Assembly (NCBI RefSeq): GCF_023008545.1
Contig: NZ_CP095397.1
Span: 1,798,001-1,862,000 of the forward strand
Origin: Natribaculum luteum
Lineage (GTDB): Archaea; Halobacteriota; Halobacteria; Halobacteriales; Natrialbaceae
Direction: 5' to 3'
Length of the DNA stretch: 64,000 nt
Position 1 is the first letter of the stretch. Each line of letters begins with the position of its first letter. Of the stretch, positions 28,937-36,014 are shown piece by piece. The notes under the pieces are model-generated. The model was not told the DNA's origin, did no database searches, and worked only from the letters and a program-made list of their open reading frames with translations. A program made the translations under genes and the position numbers.

Positions 28937-29863
28937 TCAGCCCTGCCGCCAGCTCGCCTCGACGCGCTCGGTCACCGTGCCGCCGTCGAGTTCGACCGTC
29001 GCCCCTGCCCGGTCGCCGTTCCCGCCGCCCGGCGACGCCGGTGGGCCAGTGTCGGTGAGCACGATCTCGATCGTCGCCGCGTCGGGCTCGAGCGGCGGCT
29101 CGAGGGCGACGTCGAGTGCAGTCGCGTCTCGCCGGTCGATCGATCCCGTGGTCACGCGCTCGTCGCCGTCGACTGCCACCGAGACTGACACCTCGTCGGC
29201 GTCGGTGAAATCGAGCGCTGGTGCGGTTTCGACGTCGCTGTAGTCGAACCGAAGCCGCTCGAGTGCGGTCCCATCGACGTCGACGGTCCGAAGTCTCCAC
29301 TCGTGTTCGAAGACGCCCCCGCCGGTCTGGCGGACGTCGACCGTCGCCGCGTCGACGTCGATCTCTGGCCACTCGAGTACGAGGTCGCGCTCGGCCTCGA
29401 TCCGGGTTCCGTCGCTGCTGGCGTCGATCTCGATCGTTCCCATCACCGTGGAGCCGGGCGGCCTCTCGCCGCCCGGATCCTGGTTCACGGTGACGTTCTC
29501 GAGTCGCTCGCCGGGACCGAGTCGGTCGCCGTCCGCGCCGACGACGACCCGGTCGTCGGATACGTCGACGCCGTCGGCCGAGTCGAACCGGAACGTATCG
29601 ACTGCGAGCGTGACGGTGATCGGTTCCGGAAGCTGGTTGATCACGTCGAACGAGACCGGTGGCCGACGAGGCTCGCCCCCGAACAGCAGGCCGCCGTCCT
29701 CGACCCCGTCTTCGGTCAGCCCGAGGTAGGCGTCCGCGTCGTCGACGACTGCGACGCGAACGTCACGATCGGTCCTCGCGGTCGAGAAACCGGTGGTGTC
29801 GACCGCGAGGACGCCACTCGAGCCGACGATCATCGCCAGCGTCGCGCGTCGGGTCCGTTTCAT
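28937..29863 (-). CDS. Secreted surface protein of the DUF1102-like family
   Basis: 308 residues from ATG 29863. Signal segment MKRTRRATLAMIVGSSGVLA, then the family hallmark VAVVDDADAYLGLTEDG, also found in the two proteins at 31088-32251 (VADDASAYLRLQ and VADDASAYLGIQ). The rest is beta-rich and acidic with Asp-rich loops. Probably exported and assembled at the cell surface; TasA-like biogenesis is a possible comparison because a signal peptidase I gene belongs to the same cluster. Confidence 0.75.
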   Translation of the reverse strand: MKRTRRATLAMIVGSSGVLAVDTTGFSTARTDRDVRVAVVDDADAYLGLTEDGVEDGGLLFGGEPRRPPVSFDVINQLPEPITVTLAVDTFRFDSADGVDVSDDRVVVGADGDRLGPGERLENVTVNQDPGGERPPGSTVMGTIEIDASSDGTRIEAERDLVLEWPEIDVDAATVDVRQTGGGVFEHEWRLRTVDVDGTALERLRFDYSDVETAPALDFTDADEVSVSVAVDGDERVTTGSIDRRDATALDVALEPPLEPDAATIEIVLTDTGPPASPGGGNGDRAGATVELDGGTVTERVEASWRQG

Positions 29864-29927: not shown

Positions 29928-30584
29928 TCAGTCGTCTCCCGAGCGGTCGTGGTACTCGAGTTCCACGCCCGGCGGCTCGTCTGCGATCCCGAGCCGGTTT
30001 TGCCGCTCGCAGTACCGGTGTGCGATCGCGGAGACGGCGAACGTGACGACGACGAACACGCCCCAGGTAGACGGCGTGAGCTGGCCAAGCGGCGTCAGGT
30101 CGTTCGTCGCTACCACGTACAGTGCGCCGGCCAGCGTCGTCAGTCCGAGGTAGTACGCGCCCCAGGGAATCTCCCGTCCGCGGACGACGTCCATGTAGAT
30201 CTCGACGTTCTCGAGCGCCGGCGTCGGTTCGACCGTGCCCCGGTCGCGATCGAACTCGACGACGCCAGCGGCGTCCATCTTCGGGAGGTGTGACTGCTGG
30301 AGTGCCGTGTAGACTCGCTTTCGATCGCTACTCGAGACCTCCTCGAACGCGAGGCCGTCCTCCCAGGCGGCGATCTCCTGTGAGAGGTCGCCGATGTCGA
30401 CCCTCCGGTCTTCTCGCATGAGCGTGTGCAGGATGTGCCGTCGCCGCTGGTTTGACAGGAGCGTGAAGAGCTCGTCTTCGGTGAGGACGTCGTCAGCTGT
30501 CCCCGCCGCGGCGTCTCCTCCGTCGTCCGTCTCCAGTTCCGACGTCTCGGTTCCCCCGGACGCTTCTGCGTGAGTTGCCCCCAT
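29928..30584 (-). CDS. DUF7344-like regulator with two membrane helices
   Basis: 218 residues. A winged-helix domain (about 35-120: ELFTLLSNQRRRHILHTLM, RVYTALQQSHLPKMDAAGV), a juxtamembrane segment, then two membrane helices (YYLGLTTLAGALYVVA and WGVFVVVTFAVSAIA). A membrane-bound transcription regulator by architecture. It is divergent from the secreted-protein genes across a region rich in repeated GTCAAC sites, which makes it the likely local regulator. Confidence 0.82.
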   Translation of the reverse strand: MGATHAEASGGTETSELETDDGGDAAAGTADDVLTEDELFTLLSNQRRRHILHTLMREDRRVDIGDLSQEIAAWEDGLAFEEVSSSDRKRVYTALQQSHLPKMDAAGVVEFDRDRGTVEPTPALENVEIYMDVVRGREIPWGAYYLGLTTLAGALYVVATNDLTPLGQLTPSTWGVFVVVTFAVSAIAHRYCERQNRLGIADEPPGVELEYHDRSGDD

Positions 30585-31087
30585 TTCGGATACACGCTAG
30601 TACGGCATGGGCCAAAAATGTTGGTCTGTAAATAACTGTTTGAATCCAACCAGTTCTGAAACCGCCAAAATCGGGATTCTCGCCGGACTCGAGTCAGTCG
30701 GTCAACGCCATCGATACCATCCAGACGGCCGGTCAACCGGTGGTATACCGACTCTCGAGGCCCGGTCGGACCCGGCTTGACCGACGGTCAACCGCGTCGA
30801 TACCGACTCGAGGGGCGAGTCAACGACGGCTGGACCGCAGGTTCGGCTGCCCCGAGTGGTGGTCGACTCGAGTCAACCCGTTCCATACGCCCGTGCCGGT
30901 CCAGTCGGGCGGGCGTTGACTGATGGACACCAGACTCTGCGATCGACTCCACGACTGTATTACAATACCCCTTGCTGGACACGGCTGATCTGTGATCCCC
31001 GCGGTGGGGATCGGGGCGACGACGAGCCGACGTGGAGCCGACGAGGTGTGGTCGCCCTCGAGCGACAACGACACGGAGAATCCAACC
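30585..31087. promoter_or_regulatory. Long divergent regulatory region with repeated GTCAAC sites
   Basis: Within about 220 bp the sequence GTCAAC or its complement occurs seven times (about 30701, 30732, 30777 as TTGACC, 30787, 30819, 30872, 30915). Three of these lie in tandem units, GGTCAACC followed after 8-10 bp by GATACC or TATACCGACTC; the second and third units are exactly 55 bp apart (30731 and 30786). Farther right a promoter-like GTATTACAAT (30957-30966) matches two others in the cluster. No ORF is supported here. Confidence 0.65.
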
Positions 31088-31636
31088 ATGCAACGACGCA
31101 AATTCGTCATCGGAATGGGAGCACTGGCATCGGGAGCAGCTGCGGTCGTCGGTACCGGCGCGTTCTCGAGCGTGACCGCGACACGAAACGTCGACGTCGA
31201 GGTCGCCGACGACGCGTCCGCCTACCTGCGACTGCAGGGAACTGGCGGCAACAACTCGGAGTACGTCACCGACGACGGGGACGGCGGCACGCTGATGATC
31301 AACCTCGATTCGGGCAACTCAACTAGCGCGGGCGGTGATGGCGTCAACCCCGACGCAGTCACGGAAATCGACAACGTGTTTACCGTCGAAAATCAGGGTA
31401 CTCAGGAGGTCAACGTGGATATTTCCAAGTCCGGAAACAATTCGGGTCTCGTCGAGTTCTATCCCAGTAACGGAGACTACAGCGGCAGTCCGCTCTCGAG
31501 TAGTGCCACCACCCTTGGACCCGGTGAAAGCACGGTAGTCAGCATCAAAGTCGACACGACGGACAGTAACCTCGGCAGCGGCGACCAGCTGCTTGACTCG
31601 GTGACCTTCAACGCGGTCGCGACGCCGAGCAGCTAA
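31088..31636 (+). CDS. Tat-exported DUF1102-like surface protein
   Basis: 182 residues from ATG 31088. Tat signal: RRKFVIG (residues 3-9), a hydrophobic stretch, then GTGAFSSVTA. The mature domain carries VEVADDASAYLRLQ and a Gly/Ser/Asn/Asp-rich beta domain ending without an anchor. It is expected outside the cytoplasm, free or polymerised. First gene of the secreted operon. Confidence 0.82.
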   Translation: MQRRKFVIGMGALASGAAAVVGTGAFSSVTATRNVDVEVADDASAYLRLQGTGGNNSEYVTDDGDGGTLMINLDSGNSTSAGGDGVNPDAVTEIDNVFTVENQGTQEVNVDISKSGNNSGLVEFYPSNGDYSGSPLSSSATTLGPGESTVVSIKVDTTDSNLGSGDQLLDSVTFNAVATPSS

Positions 31637-31651
31637 CCGGGTTGGAACGTC

Positions 31652-32251
31652 ATGGAACGACGAAAATTCGTCCTGAGTGTCGGCGCGCTCGCCGCCGGTG
31701 GCAGCCTCACGCTCGGCACCGGCGCGTTCAGCAGCGTCGAAGCCGAGCGCGACGTCGCCGTCAACGTCGCCGACGACGCCAGCGCGTATCTTGGGATTCA
31801 ACCCGGCGATGGACCGAACGGCAACTACGTCGACACGACGGCCAGCAACGCGCTCGCGATCAACCTCACCGGCGACAACGACAACATCGGCGACGGACTC
31901 GCCGGTGGGGAGGGACTGAACGCGAACGCCATCACGGGGATCGCAGACATCTTCCAGGTCCAGAACCAGGGCACCCAGGAGATCGAACTCCAGGTGACGC
32001 CACTGGCGTTCGGCGACGTGAGCTGGCAGAACTTCGACGGCGTACTGGGCGTACTTCTGGTTCCACATGCTGGGAGTATCGACGTCGAAATCGAGTGGGG
32101 GATCCCACCATCGGTCAACTTCATCTCCATCTCGACGCTGTCGCCCGGCGACGAGATCGAGTTCAGCCTGGTGGCGTTCGCACTGCCCGAAAGCGCAGTC
32201 GACTCGGTGGCTGTCGACGACGAAATCGAACTCACTGCGGAGGCGATCTAA
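31652..32251 (+). CDS. Tat-exported DUF1102-like surface protein, paralogue
   Basis: 199 residues, paralogous to the gene just upstream (15 bp between them): RRKFVLS Tat motif, GTGAFSSVEA, VNVADDASAYLGIQ, and VQNQGTQEIEL against VENQGTQEVNV. It lacks a C-terminal anchor. Tandem duplication of the secreted subunit suggests a two-component surface structure. Confidence 0.82.
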   Translation: MERRKFVLSVGALAAGGSLTLGTGAFSSVEAERDVAVNVADDASAYLGIQPGDGPNGNYVDTTASNALAINLTGDNDNIGDGLAGGEGLNANAITGIADIFQVQNQGTQEIELQVTPLAFGDVSWQNFDGVLGVLLVPHAGSIDVEIEWGIPPSVNFISISTLSPGDEIEFSLVAFALPESAVDSVAVDDEIELTAEAI

Positions 32252-32252
32252 C

Positions 32253-32378
32253 ATGGCAGACGACACACCAACACTCAGCGATTACGAGGAGACCGCCGAC
32301 GTCGAATTCGACCTGAGCGACGAAGAGATCGACCGCGAGACGATCAATGCGGAACTGGAGCGGCTCTTCTCCAGCTAG
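32253..32378 (+). CDS. 41-residue acidic protein of the secreted cluster
   Basis: ATG begins 1 nt after the stop of the upstream gene. Sequence runs MADDTPTLSDYEETADVEFD, then LSDEEIDRETINAELERLFS: very acidic with a C-terminal helix. Soluble, no signal. Its coupling to the exported proteins suggests a chaperone-like or regulatory partner, but this is inference. Confidence 0.65.
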   Translation: MADDTPTLSDYEETADVEFDLSDEEIDRETINAELERLFSS

Positions 32379-32418
32379 CGGCTGACACAGGCTTTTTCGA
32401 CCGCCGGCGTCACTCATC

Positions 32419-32550
32419 CAGTCACGATCGATTCCCCACACAATCTCCATACAGTCACGATCGATTCCCCACACAATCTCCATACAGTCACGATCGATTC
32501 CCCACACAATCTCCATACAGTCACGATCGATTCCCCACACAATCTCTATA
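32419..32550. repeat. Tandem repeat, 4 x 33 bp
   Basis: Four uninterrupted 33-bp units starting CAGTCACGATCGATTCCCC and ending CACACAATCTCCATA. Units 1-3 are identical and unit 4 has one change (CTCTATA). Each unit contains the palindrome CGATCG. It starts 41 bp after the preceding stop codon. As 33 is a multiple of 3, a minus-strand frame stays open through it, but that frame has no protein-like context. Confidence 0.95.
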
Positions 32551-32701
32551 TCTCGTCGGTGATCTCGAGCGACAGTTCTCGGCGGTCGTCACGCCGGCCG
32601 TTCTGGACCACATGTCGGCATTCGCTCGTTTTCGGACGCTGCTGTACCCGCTCGAGCCCACAGTCTCACGTTAACTTCCAGTTCACCAACCGTGAGACGC
32701 C

Positions 32702-32722
32702 TCAACGGCCGTATTACAATGG
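32702..32722 (+). promoter_or_regulatory. Cluster promoter motif, copy B
   Basis: CAACGGCCGTATTACAATGG (with a leading T) differs at a single base from the copy at 33349-33369, 647 bp away. It lies about 90 bp before the ATG at 32810. The TTACAAT part may be the TATA element and TCAAC a regulator half-site. Confidence 0.6.
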
Positions 32723-32809
32723 GTCGTCGTATCGCCCCCTCGAGTACCCTCGAGCCGCCGTGTGCCGCCCGGAACGGCCACGCAGGGAACAGGGAGGGGA
32801 ACTCGAGCC

Positions 32810-33232
32810 ATGGATGGATCGACGATACGACGCTACCTTCGAGCACTGGTCGCCGCGATCGACGACCGCCAGACGGACGAGCGAACGGGAATCGTCGACA
32901 GAACGCCGCTCGACCGGCGACTCTGGCTCGCCGTCGTGGTCGCGACCGCCGCGGATCTCGGGACTACCGTCGGCGGCCTCGAGCTCGGCCTCGAGGAGTC
33001 GAACCCCGCGGGAGTGCTCGTACTCGAGAGCGCGGGCGTCCTCGGACTCCTCGGGGTGAAAGCGATGGCCGTCGGGTTCGGGCTCGTGATCACGGCTGCC
33101 GTCCTGCGAGCGCCGGATCGGATCGCCCCGGACTCCGTCGTGCTCGTCGTCCCGGCCGCGCTCGCGAGCGTGTGGCTGCTCGCCGCGACGTGGAACGCGT
33201 ACCTGCTGGCGATCGTCCTGGTCGGTGCGTGA
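32810..33232 (+). CDS. DUF5658-like small membrane protein
   Basis: 140 residues with three or four helices (LWLAVVVATAADLGTTVGGL, VLGLLGVKAMAVGFGLVITA, VVLVVPAALASVWLLAATWN). The Asp-x3-T and E-x-N-P pattern in the first loop (ADLGTTVGG, EESNPAG) is the hallmark of DUF5658-like proteins. ATG 32810 chosen, with a second ATG one codon later but one. Function unknown; it lies inside the secreted-protein cluster and shares its promoter motif. Confidence 0.75.
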   Translation: MDGSTIRRYLRALVAAIDDRQTDERTGIVDRTPLDRRLWLAVVVATAADLGTTVGGLELGLEESNPAGVLVLESAGVLGLLGVKAMAVGFGLVITAAVLRAPDRIAPDSVVLVVPAALASVWLLAATWNAYLLAIVLVGA

Positions 33233-33323
33233 CGGCCCATCGCTCTCTCGCTCTCGCCGTCCTCGTTTCTTCGCTCTCGAGGGGTCAACGAGGACGATAC
33301 CGTCCACTCGAGTTCGAAATCCT

Positions 33324-33369
33324 CCGTTGACCGTCCCGAGAGGGTGGGTCAACGGCCGTCTTACAATGG
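33324..33369 (+). promoter_or_regulatory. Cluster promoter motif, copy C, with inverted repeat
   Basis: CCGTTGACC (33324-33332) is the exact complement of GGTCAACGG (33347-33355), a 9-bp inverted repeat. The right arm runs into CCGTCTTACAATGG, matching copy B. A looser second copy, GTTGAC then ATTACAAATG, lies at about 33416-33439. The signal peptidase gene starts at 33467. Confidence 0.6.
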
Positions 33370-33466
33370 CGACGGACGACCGCCGCTCGATCGTCGTGAC
33401 CACCACCGCAAACTGGTTGACTGCCACAAATTACAAATGAATAAACATAATGTAACTAGGTGACGA

Positions 33467-34627
33467 ATGATCCGACGGGGGGTCGAACGGGGGCTACAGG
33501 GGGTGGCGTTCGTCGTCCTCGTCTCGCTCGTGGCGGGACAGGTGCTCGGCCAGCCGATCCTGCTCGGGTTCGTCGAGACGGGGAGCATGGAGCCGACGAT
33601 CGACACCGGCGACGGCTTCGTCGCGATCCCGAGCGAGGTGACCGGCGACCCGGAGCCCGGTGACGTCGTCGTCTTCGAGGCCGAGGAGATCCAGGGCGGC
33701 GGGCTGACGACCCACCGTATCGTCGAGGAGACCGATCGAGGGTACGTGACCCGCGGCGACGCGAACCCGTTTACCGACCAGGACGGCGACGAGCCGTACG
33801 TCCAGGACGCCCAGATCGTCGCCGAGGCGTGGCAGGTAAACGGCGAGATCGTGACGATCCCGGCGTTCGGGACGGCCGTCATGACCGCGAGCGGCGCACT
33901 CGAGTCCGTCCAGACGCGGCTGGCCGTCGCACTCGGCGTCCGGAATCTTCCGGGTGCGTCGGGACTTGCGGTTCCGATTCTCGGCGTCTCGATCGTCCTC
34001 TACGTCGCCGAGACGATCCGCGAACGACGGGAGCCGTCGCTCGAGTCGCGCACCGGCGACGAGGCGGACGACTGGCTCGATCCCCGGCTGCTCTCGGCCG
34101 GCTTCGCGCTGCTGGTCGTCGTCGCGGCGGCGGCGGCGATGATCGTACCGGCTGGCACGCAGTCCTACGCCGTCGTCAGCGCGGAGTTCGACTCGGAGCG
34201 ACCGCTCGTGATCGAGCGGGAAACGACCGGCGAGATCCCGTACCCGGTTTCCAACGGCGGGTTCGTTCCCGTGATCTCCTACGTCGAACCCGGCAGCGAG
34301 GACGTGACCGTCGATCCCGGACGGGCGATCGTCGGGCCACGCGACGAGACGACGGCGACGGTCTCGATCACGGCCCCAGAGGAGACGGGCCACTATCCGA
34401 TGTACGTCACCGAGTACCGCTACCTGTACGTGCTCCCGGCCCCGGTCGTCGACGCTCTCTACGCGGTCCACCCGTGGGCACCGTCGACGGCGATCCTGTC
34501 GCTGCTGGGCGGTGGCACCTACGCGATCGGGCGAGTCCTCTCGGGGCCAGGCGACGTCCGCTCGAGACGGACGGCGATCCGAAACCGCTGCAGAGAGACG
34601 CGATCGATCGTTCGGAGGCGAAACTGA
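33467..34627 (+). CDS. Archaeal signal peptidase I (S26B) with extended C-terminus
   Basis: 386 residues. N-terminal anchor helix (about 10-30), catalytic Ser in GSMEPTI (about 40) and His in LTTHRIVEE (about 83), the Ser-His dyad of archaeal and ER enzymes. After the protease (to about 165) come a second membrane helix, a low-complexity segment, another helix, a beta domain (FDSERPLVIERET...YPVSNGGFVPVISY) and a final helix. It probably removes signal peptides of the secreted proteins in this cluster (SipW-like). The extra ectodomain could recruit them. Confidence 0.88.
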   Translation: MIRRGVERGLQGVAFVVLVSLVAGQVLGQPILLGFVETGSMEPTIDTGDGFVAIPSEVTGDPEPGDVVVFEAEEIQGGGLTTHRIVEETDRGYVTRGDANPFTDQDGDEPYVQDAQIVAEAWQVNGEIVTIPAFGTAVMTASGALESVQTRLAVALGVRNLPGASGLAVPILGVSIVLYVAETIRERREPSLESRTGDEADDWLDPRLLSAGFALLVVVAAAAAMIVPAGTQSYAVVSAEFDSERPLVIERETTGEIPYPVSNGGFVPVISYVEPGSEDVTVDPGRAIVGPRDETTATVSITAPEETGHYPMYVTEYRYLYVLPAPVVDALYAVHPWAPSTAILSLLGGGTYAIGRVLSGPGDVRSRRTAIRNRCRETRSIVRRRN

Positions 34628-34634
34628 GATCGAC

Positions 34635-36014
34635 ATGACATTCCTATCGACGGAGACTGGCGAGGCGGCGGACGAGGAGCGACGGCTGCGACTTCGCGTC
34701 CTGCTCGAGGAGTATCGAACGGTACTGATCGTCGCGTTCGTCGTCCTGGTAGTCCTTGGGGGGTGGCTGAGCTACGGTGCGTACGCGAATCCGGGCGAGG
34801 AGACGACACGGCAACGTGAGTCCACCTGGACCGCCACGGGCGACGTCTCGCACGACGCCACGGTCACGGAGCCGAACTCGGTCTATCCCACCGGGACCCG
34901 ACTCGAGAACCGGCCGCTGTACTACACGGCGATCAGCCCGACGGTCGACGGCGAGTTCGTCGGGGGGTACGAGTCACGGACCGGCGACGGCGTCGACGTC
35001 GCGCTCACGGTCGACCTGTCCTATCGTGCGGTCGATCCCGACGACGGGACCGTCTACTGGAGCGAGCGAGAACGGCTCGCGTCGACGACCGGCGAAGACG
35101 TCGACCCGGGCGAGAACGTCACCGCCACGTTCGCCGTCGACGTCAGCGACGTCGCGACGCGGATCGACGAGATCGAGTCCGACCTCGGAGCCAGTCCGGG
35201 CGAGACCGAGGTTGTCCTCGAGTTTGGCCGGGTGATCGAGGGAACGATCGACGGCGAGCAGCGGTCGGCCACGGACAGCTACCGGGTTCCAATCGTCACC
35301 GAGGGCGGGACGTACCGGCTCGAGGGCCAGGACTCCTACGACGAGCCGTACGAGGAGTACGAGACCGAGGTCGTCACCGCCTCGGCCGGTCCGGTGCGGA
35401 CGGTCGGCGGGCCGGTGCTCCTGCTGGTGGGCGTCGGCGGTCTCGGGGGACTCGCGTACGCCTCCCGACGGCTCCCGGAACCGACGGCCGCCGAACGCGA
35501 GTGGCTCGTGTACCGCGACGACCGCGCCCGATTCGAGGAGGTGATCACGACCATGGCGCTGCCCGACGCGGCACTCGAGGGGCCGCGAGCGAAGCCGGAG
35601 ACGCTGGCGGCGCTGGCCGAGTTCGGGATCGACGCCGACGCTGCGATCGTCTTCGATCCGCAGCGAGAACTGTACGTCGTCCGCCACGACGGGATAGTGT
35701 CCGTCTTCGAGCCACCGACGCCCGCGTCGGTAGCCGACGGCCGCGACGACGCGAGTTCCGGCGACGACGGGCGGATTTCGTTCGTCGAGGCGTCCGACTC
35801 GGCGTCGGCGAGCGAGGGGACGACGACTGGCGAGCCCACGTCGAAATCGGACGCCGACCCCTCGGCCGCGAGCGACGACGACCCGTTTACGTTCGCCGGA
35901 CTCGAGACGGCAGCGGACGAAACCGCCGAGTCCGACTCGAGCGGCTGGCACGCACAGTTGGACGAGTCGGGCCCGGACGAGGGTGACGCGGACGATACCA
36001 ACGGTGGCGACTGA
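34635..36014 (+). CDS. DUF5305-like membrane protein
   Basis: 459 residues from ATG 34635, 7 nt after the signal peptidase stop. One membrane helix near the N-terminus (VLIVAFVVLVVLGGWLSYGA), a large beta-rich ectodomain (about 60-250), a second helix (GGPVLLLVGVGGLGGLAYA), then a cytoplasmic domain and an acidic Ser/Asp-rich tail. Family resemblance is to DUF5305 proteins, repeatedly found next to signal peptidase I genes. It probably cooperates in export or assembly of surface proteins. Confidence 0.82.
   Translation: MTFLSTETGEAADEERRLRLRVLLEEYRTVLIVAFVVLVVLGGWLSYGAYANPGEETTRQRESTWTATGDVSHDATVTEPNSVYPTGTRLENRPLYYTAISPTVDGEFVGGYESRTGDGVDVALTVDLSYRAVDPDDGTVYWSERERLASTTGEDVDPGENVTATFAVDVSDVATRIDEIESDLGASPGETEVVLEFGRVIEGTIDGEQRSATDSYRVPIVTEGGTYRLEGQDSYDEPYEEYETEVVTASAGPVRTVGGPVLLLVGVGGLGGLAYASRRLPEPTAAEREWLVYRDDRARFEEVITTMALPDAALEGPRAKPETLAALAEFGIDADAAIVFDPQRELYVVRHDGIVSVFEPPTPASVADGRDDASSGDDGRISFVEASDSASASEGTTTGEPTSKSDADPSAASDDDPFTFAGLETAADETAESDSSGWHAQLDESGPDEGDADDTNGGD

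Follow-up and report, generated by a model that had tools for sequence, protein, structure and literature searches.

A putative promoter-operator system in the TasA/SipW-type surface-pilus cluster of Natribaculum luteum and related Natrialbaceae

Within the 4.61-Mb genome of Natribaculum luteum, we analysed a 64-kb stretch (G000:C1:1798001-1862000), which is referred to as the window in the following and numbered from its first letter. It contains a cluster of genes for TasA-like surface proteins and a SipW-like signal peptidase, several of which are preceded by a common promoter block, built around the sequence TTACAAT, and by a set of GTCAAC sites. The genes for a TasA-like protein and a DUF7344 protein lie on the reverse strand; tasA1, tasA2, a 41-amino-acid (aa) gene, a 140-aa gene, sipW and a DUF5305 gene follow divergently:

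28937..29863, reverse strand: TasA-like protein with a SipW-type signal peptide, 3' of the DUF7344 gene (open reading frame, ORF; homologs adjoin DUF7344 in 20/20 loci)
29928..30584, reverse strand: DUF7344 protein, candidate regulator (PF24035, E=2.8e-30; winged-helix model)
31088..31636, forward strand: tasA1, TasA/pilin-like subunit (DUF1102; PF06510, 3.7e-7; PDB 9p0a pilin, E=9e-11)
31652..32251, forward strand: tasA2, TasA/pilin-like subunit (PDB 9p0a pilin, E=1.1e-12)
32253..32378, forward strand: conserved small protein, 41 aa (43-100% identity in 10/20 relatives)
32810..33232, forward strand: hydrophobic membrane protein, 140 aa (found in 4/20 relatives)
33467..34627, forward strand: sipW, SipW-like archaeal signal peptidase (S26; TIGR02228, 55.7 bits)
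34635..36014, forward strand: DUF5305 membrane protein, directly 3' of sipW (PF17231, 3.6e-54)

The subunits show the marks of a TasA/camelysin-type pilus, namely SipW-type signal peptides, as read from the sequences, and homology to the solved subunit 9p0a, while the sipW product exceeds the cutoff for archaeal signal peptidase I (TIGR02228, 55.7 bits versus 51.85) and has its closest named relative in Natribaculum breve (98%). Judged by these sequences, the cluster is one of TasA-type pilins, related to the solved pilin 9p0a, and a SipW-like peptidase. tasA1 and tasA2 score below the NCBIfam TafE equivalog cutoff (65.1 and 65.9 bits versus 155), a Pfam search with the TasA-like protein at 28937..29863 returned no match, and family searches assigned no family to the 140-aa protein. 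The arrangement resembles the TasA/SipW biofilm fibre operon of Bacillus subtilis, in which surface subunits with SipW-type signal peptides are likewise encoded beside a SipW-like peptidase; that operon is regulated via SinR, a mode of control with no known relation to the elements described here.

Three promoter blocks precede tasA1, the 140-aa gene and sipW:

30947..30966, forward strand: tasA1 promoter block CTCCACGACTGTATTACAAT (TTACAAT at the same place in 19/19 aligned relatives)
32701..32722, forward strand: promoter block of the 140-aa membrane-protein gene (core and 21-bp block matches)
33347..33369, forward strand: sipW promoter block GGTCAACGGCCGTCTTACAATGG (core and 21-bp block matches)

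A first-pass annotation of this DNA had pointed out a 21-bp block that occurs at 32702 and 33349 with one difference. This is exact: the block reads TCAACGGCCGTATTACAATGG at 32702-32722 and TCAACGGCCGTCTTACAATGG at 33349-33369, and the genome-wide search that had been suggested found it at these two places only, both in the cluster, even when up to 3 mismatches were allowed, so that the motif is not scattered. Its core, which had also been seen at 30957, is present there and at 32711 as GTATTACAAT and at 33358 as the variant GTCTTACAAT. In the window, the core is found 3 times versus 0.25 expected, a count reached by none of 100 shuffles, and the TTACAAT-containing pattern GTMTTACAATRS has just these three matches (30957, 32711, 33358) in the whole genome, with none for the reversed control. 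The first T of TTACAAT lies 128, 96 and 106 bp before the respective start codon, and its end about 121, 89 and 99 bp, in keeping with the 90-125 bp proposed earlier. Likewise, the view that this implies an unusually long leader for haloarchaea agrees with the relevant part of a study of Haloferax volcanii, by which 72% of the protein-coding transcripts are leaderless (PMC4983044).

The upstream regions also contain the following sites:

30700..30718, forward strand: distal composite site 1, GGTCAAC-N5-CGATACC (one of 3 exact genome matches)
30731..30749, forward strand: distal composite site 2, GGTCAACCGGTGGTATACC (2 mismatches; GTCAAC-N8-TAC retained)
30777..30791, no strand: palindrome TTGACCGACGGTCAA (sole TTGAC-N5-GTCAA of the genome)
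30786..30804, forward strand: distal composite site 3, overlapping the palindrome (exact composite match)
30818..30836, forward strand: degenerate distal site 4, GTCAAC with GAC replacing TAC (relatives carry an inverted repeat here)
30871..30889, forward strand: distal site 5, AGTCAACCCGTTCCATACG (from a scan for the GTCAAC-N8-TAC layout)
30915..30920, forward strand: GTTGAC half-site, 45 bp 5' of TTACAAT (from the GTTGAC spacing in TTACAAT instances)
33283..33301, forward strand: distal composite site GGTCAACGAGGACGATACC 5' of sipW (exact composite match)
33324..33355, no strand: 9-bp inverted repeat CCGTTGACC-N14-GGTCAACGG (arms 33324-33332 and 33347-33355, exact, as first described)

Between 30700 and 30920, GTCAAC is found exactly six times (five forward, one reverse) rather than seven times as had been claimed; a seventh site is obtained only by counting TTGACC at 30777. 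None of 2000 dinucleotide shuffles of 30585-31087 reaches six sites (mean 0.39), and none of 2000 reaches the four GTCAAC/GTTGAC sites of 33233-33466. Across the whole window, GTCAAC/GTTGAC occurs at the expected frequency (37 versus 36.4), so that the signal lies in local clustering, and we rejected GTCAAC as a stand-alone motif. Rather, it is one half of a composite element with the layout GTCAAC-N8-TAC, common to the distal and promoter copies. In its strict form, GGTCAAC-N5-SGATACC, this element has three exact matches in the genome, all in the cluster (control: 0); when 1-2 mismatches are allowed, 86/89 matches are spread over the genome, distal site 2 of the array being among these relaxed matches. 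The palindrome TTGAC-N5-GTCAA occurs once in the genome, at 30777-30791, versus three occurrences of the control pattern. The distal GTCAAC starts in the window are spaced by 31, 55, 32 and 53 bp, which is near 3, 5, 3 and 5 helical turns.

Two further observations concern the stretch between tasA2 and the 140-aa gene. The 41-aa protein 3' of tasA2 is acidic, shows 95-100% identity in the three closest regions, and found no match in a family search. A 33-bp tandem repeat of 4.1 copies with 98% matches (window 32415-32550) lies between its gene and the 140-aa promoter.

The search with sipW yielded matches in 109 of the 121 genomes of the family (E <= 1e-30), and we compared 20 regions around close orthologs. 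In each of them, a DUF7344 gene (60-97% identity) lies upstream, on the strand opposite to the tasA side. The intergenic region was aligned between the window and 19 of these relatives; locus L056 was left out because its neighbouring tasA-like gene is inverted. TTACAAT is conserved in all 20 aligned regions, where it departs from the TTWT box, and in the window as in the 19 relatives it occurs once per intergenic region, 109-136 bp 5' of the tasA1 start codon. Among 391 Halobacteria genomes, the pattern GTATTACAATAYCC has 25 matches in 24 genomes (reversed control: 1). All but one share the strand of a sipW ortholog and precede it by 1.4-4.4 kb, all of these within the family of the window; the remaining match, outside the family (G404), lies at an unrelated locus. 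The longer pattern TTGAC-N27-TCCAC-N5-TATTACAAT has 17 mismatch-free occurrences, spread over 15 of the 121 family genomes; a sipW ortholog follows within 4.5 kb in 16 cases and at 6.9 kb in one (G057). When up to 3 mismatches are allowed, many of its matches lie elsewhere, and the reversed control is matched as well.

The spacing is rigid as well. We considered all 49 TTACAAT instances, chance ones included, in 27 sequences (the window stretch, the 20 regions and six named loci). TC[AC]AC stands 12 bp 5' of TTACAAT in 37 of them, and GTTGAC either 44/45 bp (18 instances, tasA-type) or 34/35 bp 5' of it (9 instances, sipW-type), two placements that differ by one helical turn. In several relatives (G011, G018, G038, G056, G077), the half-site at -45 belongs to a full TTGAC-N5-GTCAA palindrome as its left arm. 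Of 109 GTCAA instances in the intergenic regions, 31 have TAC at offset 14, while no other offset exceeds 3; this layout is found in 27/64 instances along tasA1 and in 4/45 in reverse, and in 6/119 of a control set that includes some sipW promoters. Because both keep the offset-14 layout, the promoter block, GTCAAC-N8-TACAAT, amounts to the promoter-proximal copy of the distal GTCAAC-N8-TACC sites. The sequence, genome-wide specificity, conservation and fixed spacing of these elements are direct observations. At one locus (L041:3167-4579), a tasA1-like gene is present as two tandem copies, both preceded by a TTACAAT promoter block of their own.

Downstream of the tasA-type block lies a further conserved feature:

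30994..31012, forward strand: inverted repeat GATCCCCGCGGTGGGGATC at a constant distance 3' of TTACAAT, a predicted hairpin of the 5' leader (25/25 tasA-type sites)

This GATCCCC...GGGGATC repeat is found at the same offset 3' of TTACAAT in 25/25 tasA-type sites; at 22 of them the offset was scored as 35, and at the remaining three, which carry the repeat too, a chance match comes before it. No such inverted repeat follows TTACAAT in the sipW-type and 140-aa-type sites. The predicted folding energy of the tasA-type repeat averages -14.5 kcal/mol versus -10.0 for shuffles, and the changes that keep the pairing are mostly G-U. With TTACAAT near -30, the repeat would sit at the extreme 5' end of the mRNA.

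The same genome contains a second DUF7344-TasA-SipW cluster, with its DUF7344 gene at C1:1105008. Here, the palindrome GTTCAAG-N5-CTTGAAC, exact once in the genome, is followed by CAATACAAAG and a tasA gene. Orthologs of this second DUF7344 were matched in 114 genomes, and of 20 regions compared, 19 have sipW; the box [CT]AATACAA[AT] lies 86-102 bp 5' of a TasA gene in 17 of these 19, the exceptions being L202 and L207. Wherever a GTTCA-N9-TGAAC palindrome was found in these regions (11/11), it lies exactly 55 bp 5' of such a box. Simple arithmetic puts the palindrome centres of the two types about 49 and 38 bp 5' of TACAA, so that these, too, differ by one helical turn. In 30 loci, the divergent intergenic region of the paralog is mostly without a directly divergent TasA gene. 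Lastly, the first residues of 9p0a are those of TasA proteins in the paralogous clusters (L199, L204), which therefore probably encode a pilus of known structure.

The product of the DUF7344 gene scores 104.9 bits against PF24035 (curated cutoff 27.8) and is predicted to consist of a winged-helix domain (residues 36-120) and two C-terminal membrane helices. In the structure model, block means of the predicted local distance difference test (pLDDT) reach 83-93 over residues 41-120, at an overall mean of 69. A fold search gave weak matches (best E 0.056), including winged-helix repressors such as BigR and HxlR, and a sequence-based search of the profile against solved structures yielded nothing useful. 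The N. luteum genome has 27 matches to the domain, most of them away from TasA clusters, and [AT]TACAA is found beside 5 of the 27, twice 5' of tasA genes. Two of the matches fall in adjacent open frames of 404 codons (C1:2009210, C1:2009528). A TTTTT/TTTTA stretch about 31-35 bp 5' of its start codon suggests that the DUF7344 gene itself has an ordinary promoter of the near-leaderless type.

The motifs are confined to the cluster genome-wide, keep their position and spacing in relatives, and stand before tasA1, the 140-aa gene and sipW. The initial proposal of one regulator for the cluster is thus well supported, and the pattern points to one dedicated regulator for the whole fibre machinery. 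We consider it fairly probable that these elements form a dedicated promoter-operator system of the TasA/SipW-type surface-pilus cluster in Natrialbaceae. Its most likely reader is the neighbouring DUF7344 protein, which would act mainly as an activator. What we infer beyond the sequences concerns the start sites, the identity of the regulator, activation and co-expression. Between DUF7344 and tasA1, as well as 5' of the 140-aa gene and of sipW, the regulator would bind GTCAAC-N8-TAC sites and TTGAC-N5-GTCAA palindromes. The promoter-proximal copy, [GC]TC[AC]AC-N7-TTACAAT, would fuse this operator to a non-canonical core element, in which TTACAAT occupies the TATA place instead of the usual TTWT box. 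Bound to the array and to this proximal site, the regulator would most likely recruit TATA-binding protein (TBP), transcription factor B (TFB) and RNA polymerase to the weak box, as GvpE does beside the TFB recognition element (BRE), and transcription would start about 25-30 bp 3' of TTACAAT, immediately 5' of the leader hairpin, and the leader would measure roughly 70-100 nt. The reader would be the membrane-anchored winged-helix DUF7344 protein, and a mainly activating role is suggested because the core box is off-consensus and a half-site lies just upstream of the expected BRE position.

Several observations weigh against this interpretation. The DUF7344 helix before the wing, presumably the recognition helix, is near-identical between the two paralogs despite their different palindromes; with 27 DUF7344 matches in the genome, the neighbouring one need not be the reader; and a third tasA-sipW-DUF5305 cluster (L166, G000:C1:3244000-3258000), with no adjacent DUF7344 gene, still has TACAAT 157 bp 5' of tasA. 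Moreover, 4 of 15 more distant loci, three of them with DUF7344, have no TACAA in the 150 bp 5' of tasA, and covariation in the leader repeat (17 rows) does not exceed that of shuffles. The first three of these points would fit an unlinked transcription factor that reads the same operator and controls the same regulon, with DUF7344 acting elsewhere, such as in membrane sensing or pilus assembly. We regard this as a possible but less probable explanation: a divergent DUF7344 gene is found in 20/20 loci with the operator in between, and the two clusters each pair their own DUF7344 with their own once-per-genome palindrome. Both operator types share a TTGA/TCAA core, which could explain the near-identical helix. 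By synteny and the two parallel clusters, DUF7344 is the best candidate for the regulator of this operator; the earlier proposal that it plays this role is plausible rather than firm, with the near-identical helix as the main objection.

It appears rather unlikely that TTACAAT / AATACAAAG is only a core promoter of an alternative class, used by a special pair of TBP and TFB, with the GTCAAC sites as a separate, weaker matter. TACAA is indeed common to both paralogous clusters and is found within 150 bp 5' of tasA in 11 of the 15 more distant loci, versus a background of 30/299 ORFs, and several TBPs and TFBs are possible in haloarchaea (PMC4390858); however, the half-sites keep rigid distances to the box, and the GTCAAC-N8-TAC layout recurs in distal sites that have no promoter. 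Less likely still is that transcription starts upstream of TTACAAT, the block being part of the transcribed leader and the hairpin a post-transcriptional regulatory element. The fixed distance of the inverted repeat in all 25 tasA-type leaders and the changes that preserve pairing via G-U would suit such an element, but the 140-aa- and sipW-type sites have the box without a hairpin, and the upstream conservation is protein-site-like and helically phased. Given the G-U changes and the non-significant covariation, the repeat may be an RNA hairpin or equally a DNA palindrome. Finally, the proximity of the two 21-bp copies might suggest chance or a recently duplicated stretch, yet their flanks differ, shuffles never reach the observed counts and the element is kept across many genera, so that this origin has a negligible probability; chance in particular was rejected by shuffles, genome-wide counts and conservation.

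Among known haloarchaeal promoters, the canonical type, by the relevant part of PMC4983044, has a TTWT box, a CGAAA BRE and a WW element; as the criterion for it, we took such a box some 27 bp upstream of the transcription start. The blocks described here share the single AT-rich box at a fixed position, but differ in the sequence TTACAAT and the predicted long leader. Activators of bop are described in PMC3184054. A closer parallel is provided by the GvpE-activated gas-vesicle promoters, where, according to the corresponding sections of PMC4390858, an upstream activating sequence (UAS) with two half-sites lies beside the BRE and their fixed distance is essential. Both systems combine divergent genes with an element placed shortly before BRE/TATA at a constant distance (here TC[AC]AC at -12, 37/49). 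The GvpE UAS as described there comprises 20 nt, in two 8-nt halves 4 nt apart, and is the site of a leucine-zipper-like protein (PMC4390858). By contrast, the element described here has another sequence, with GTTGAC/GTCAAC half-sites at other spacings and an array over about 270 bp, its neighbour is DUF7344, a winged-helix membrane candidate, and its core box is TTACAAT. It may thus work like a GvpE-type UAS promoter, yet is not one. Similarly, the sptA promoter of Natrinema sp. J7-2, which belongs to the same family, has semi-palindromes upstream of TATA and a distant, repeat-bearing enhancer, as seen in the pertinent part of PMC6085418; there, the sequences are GAAATN7ATTTC and TTCTTN10AAGAA, the gene encodes a protease, and the regulator was not identified there. 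A literature search, with subscription papers largely outside its scope, found no paper on the regulation of haloarchaeal TasA/SipW/Taf clusters and none featuring DUF7344.

More tentatively, and with considerable doubt, DUF7344 might form a family of winged-helix regulators tethered to the membrane, which recognise operators of the TTGA/TCAA type fused to a non-canonical TACAA core. Each TasA pilus cluster of Halobacteria would then have its own DUF7344 and its own palindrome, helically phased to the same box, and a membrane signal would co-activate subunits and peptidase. TasA-type pili are fibres common to bacteria and archaea. The regulon can be read from DNA alone and exists in two parallel versions in one genome, which offers a testable code of regulator-pilus pairing. 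It also supplies a hypothesis for the function of DUF7344, which is matched 27 times here, and provides a case of a putative core promoter at variance with the haloarchaeal TATA consensus.

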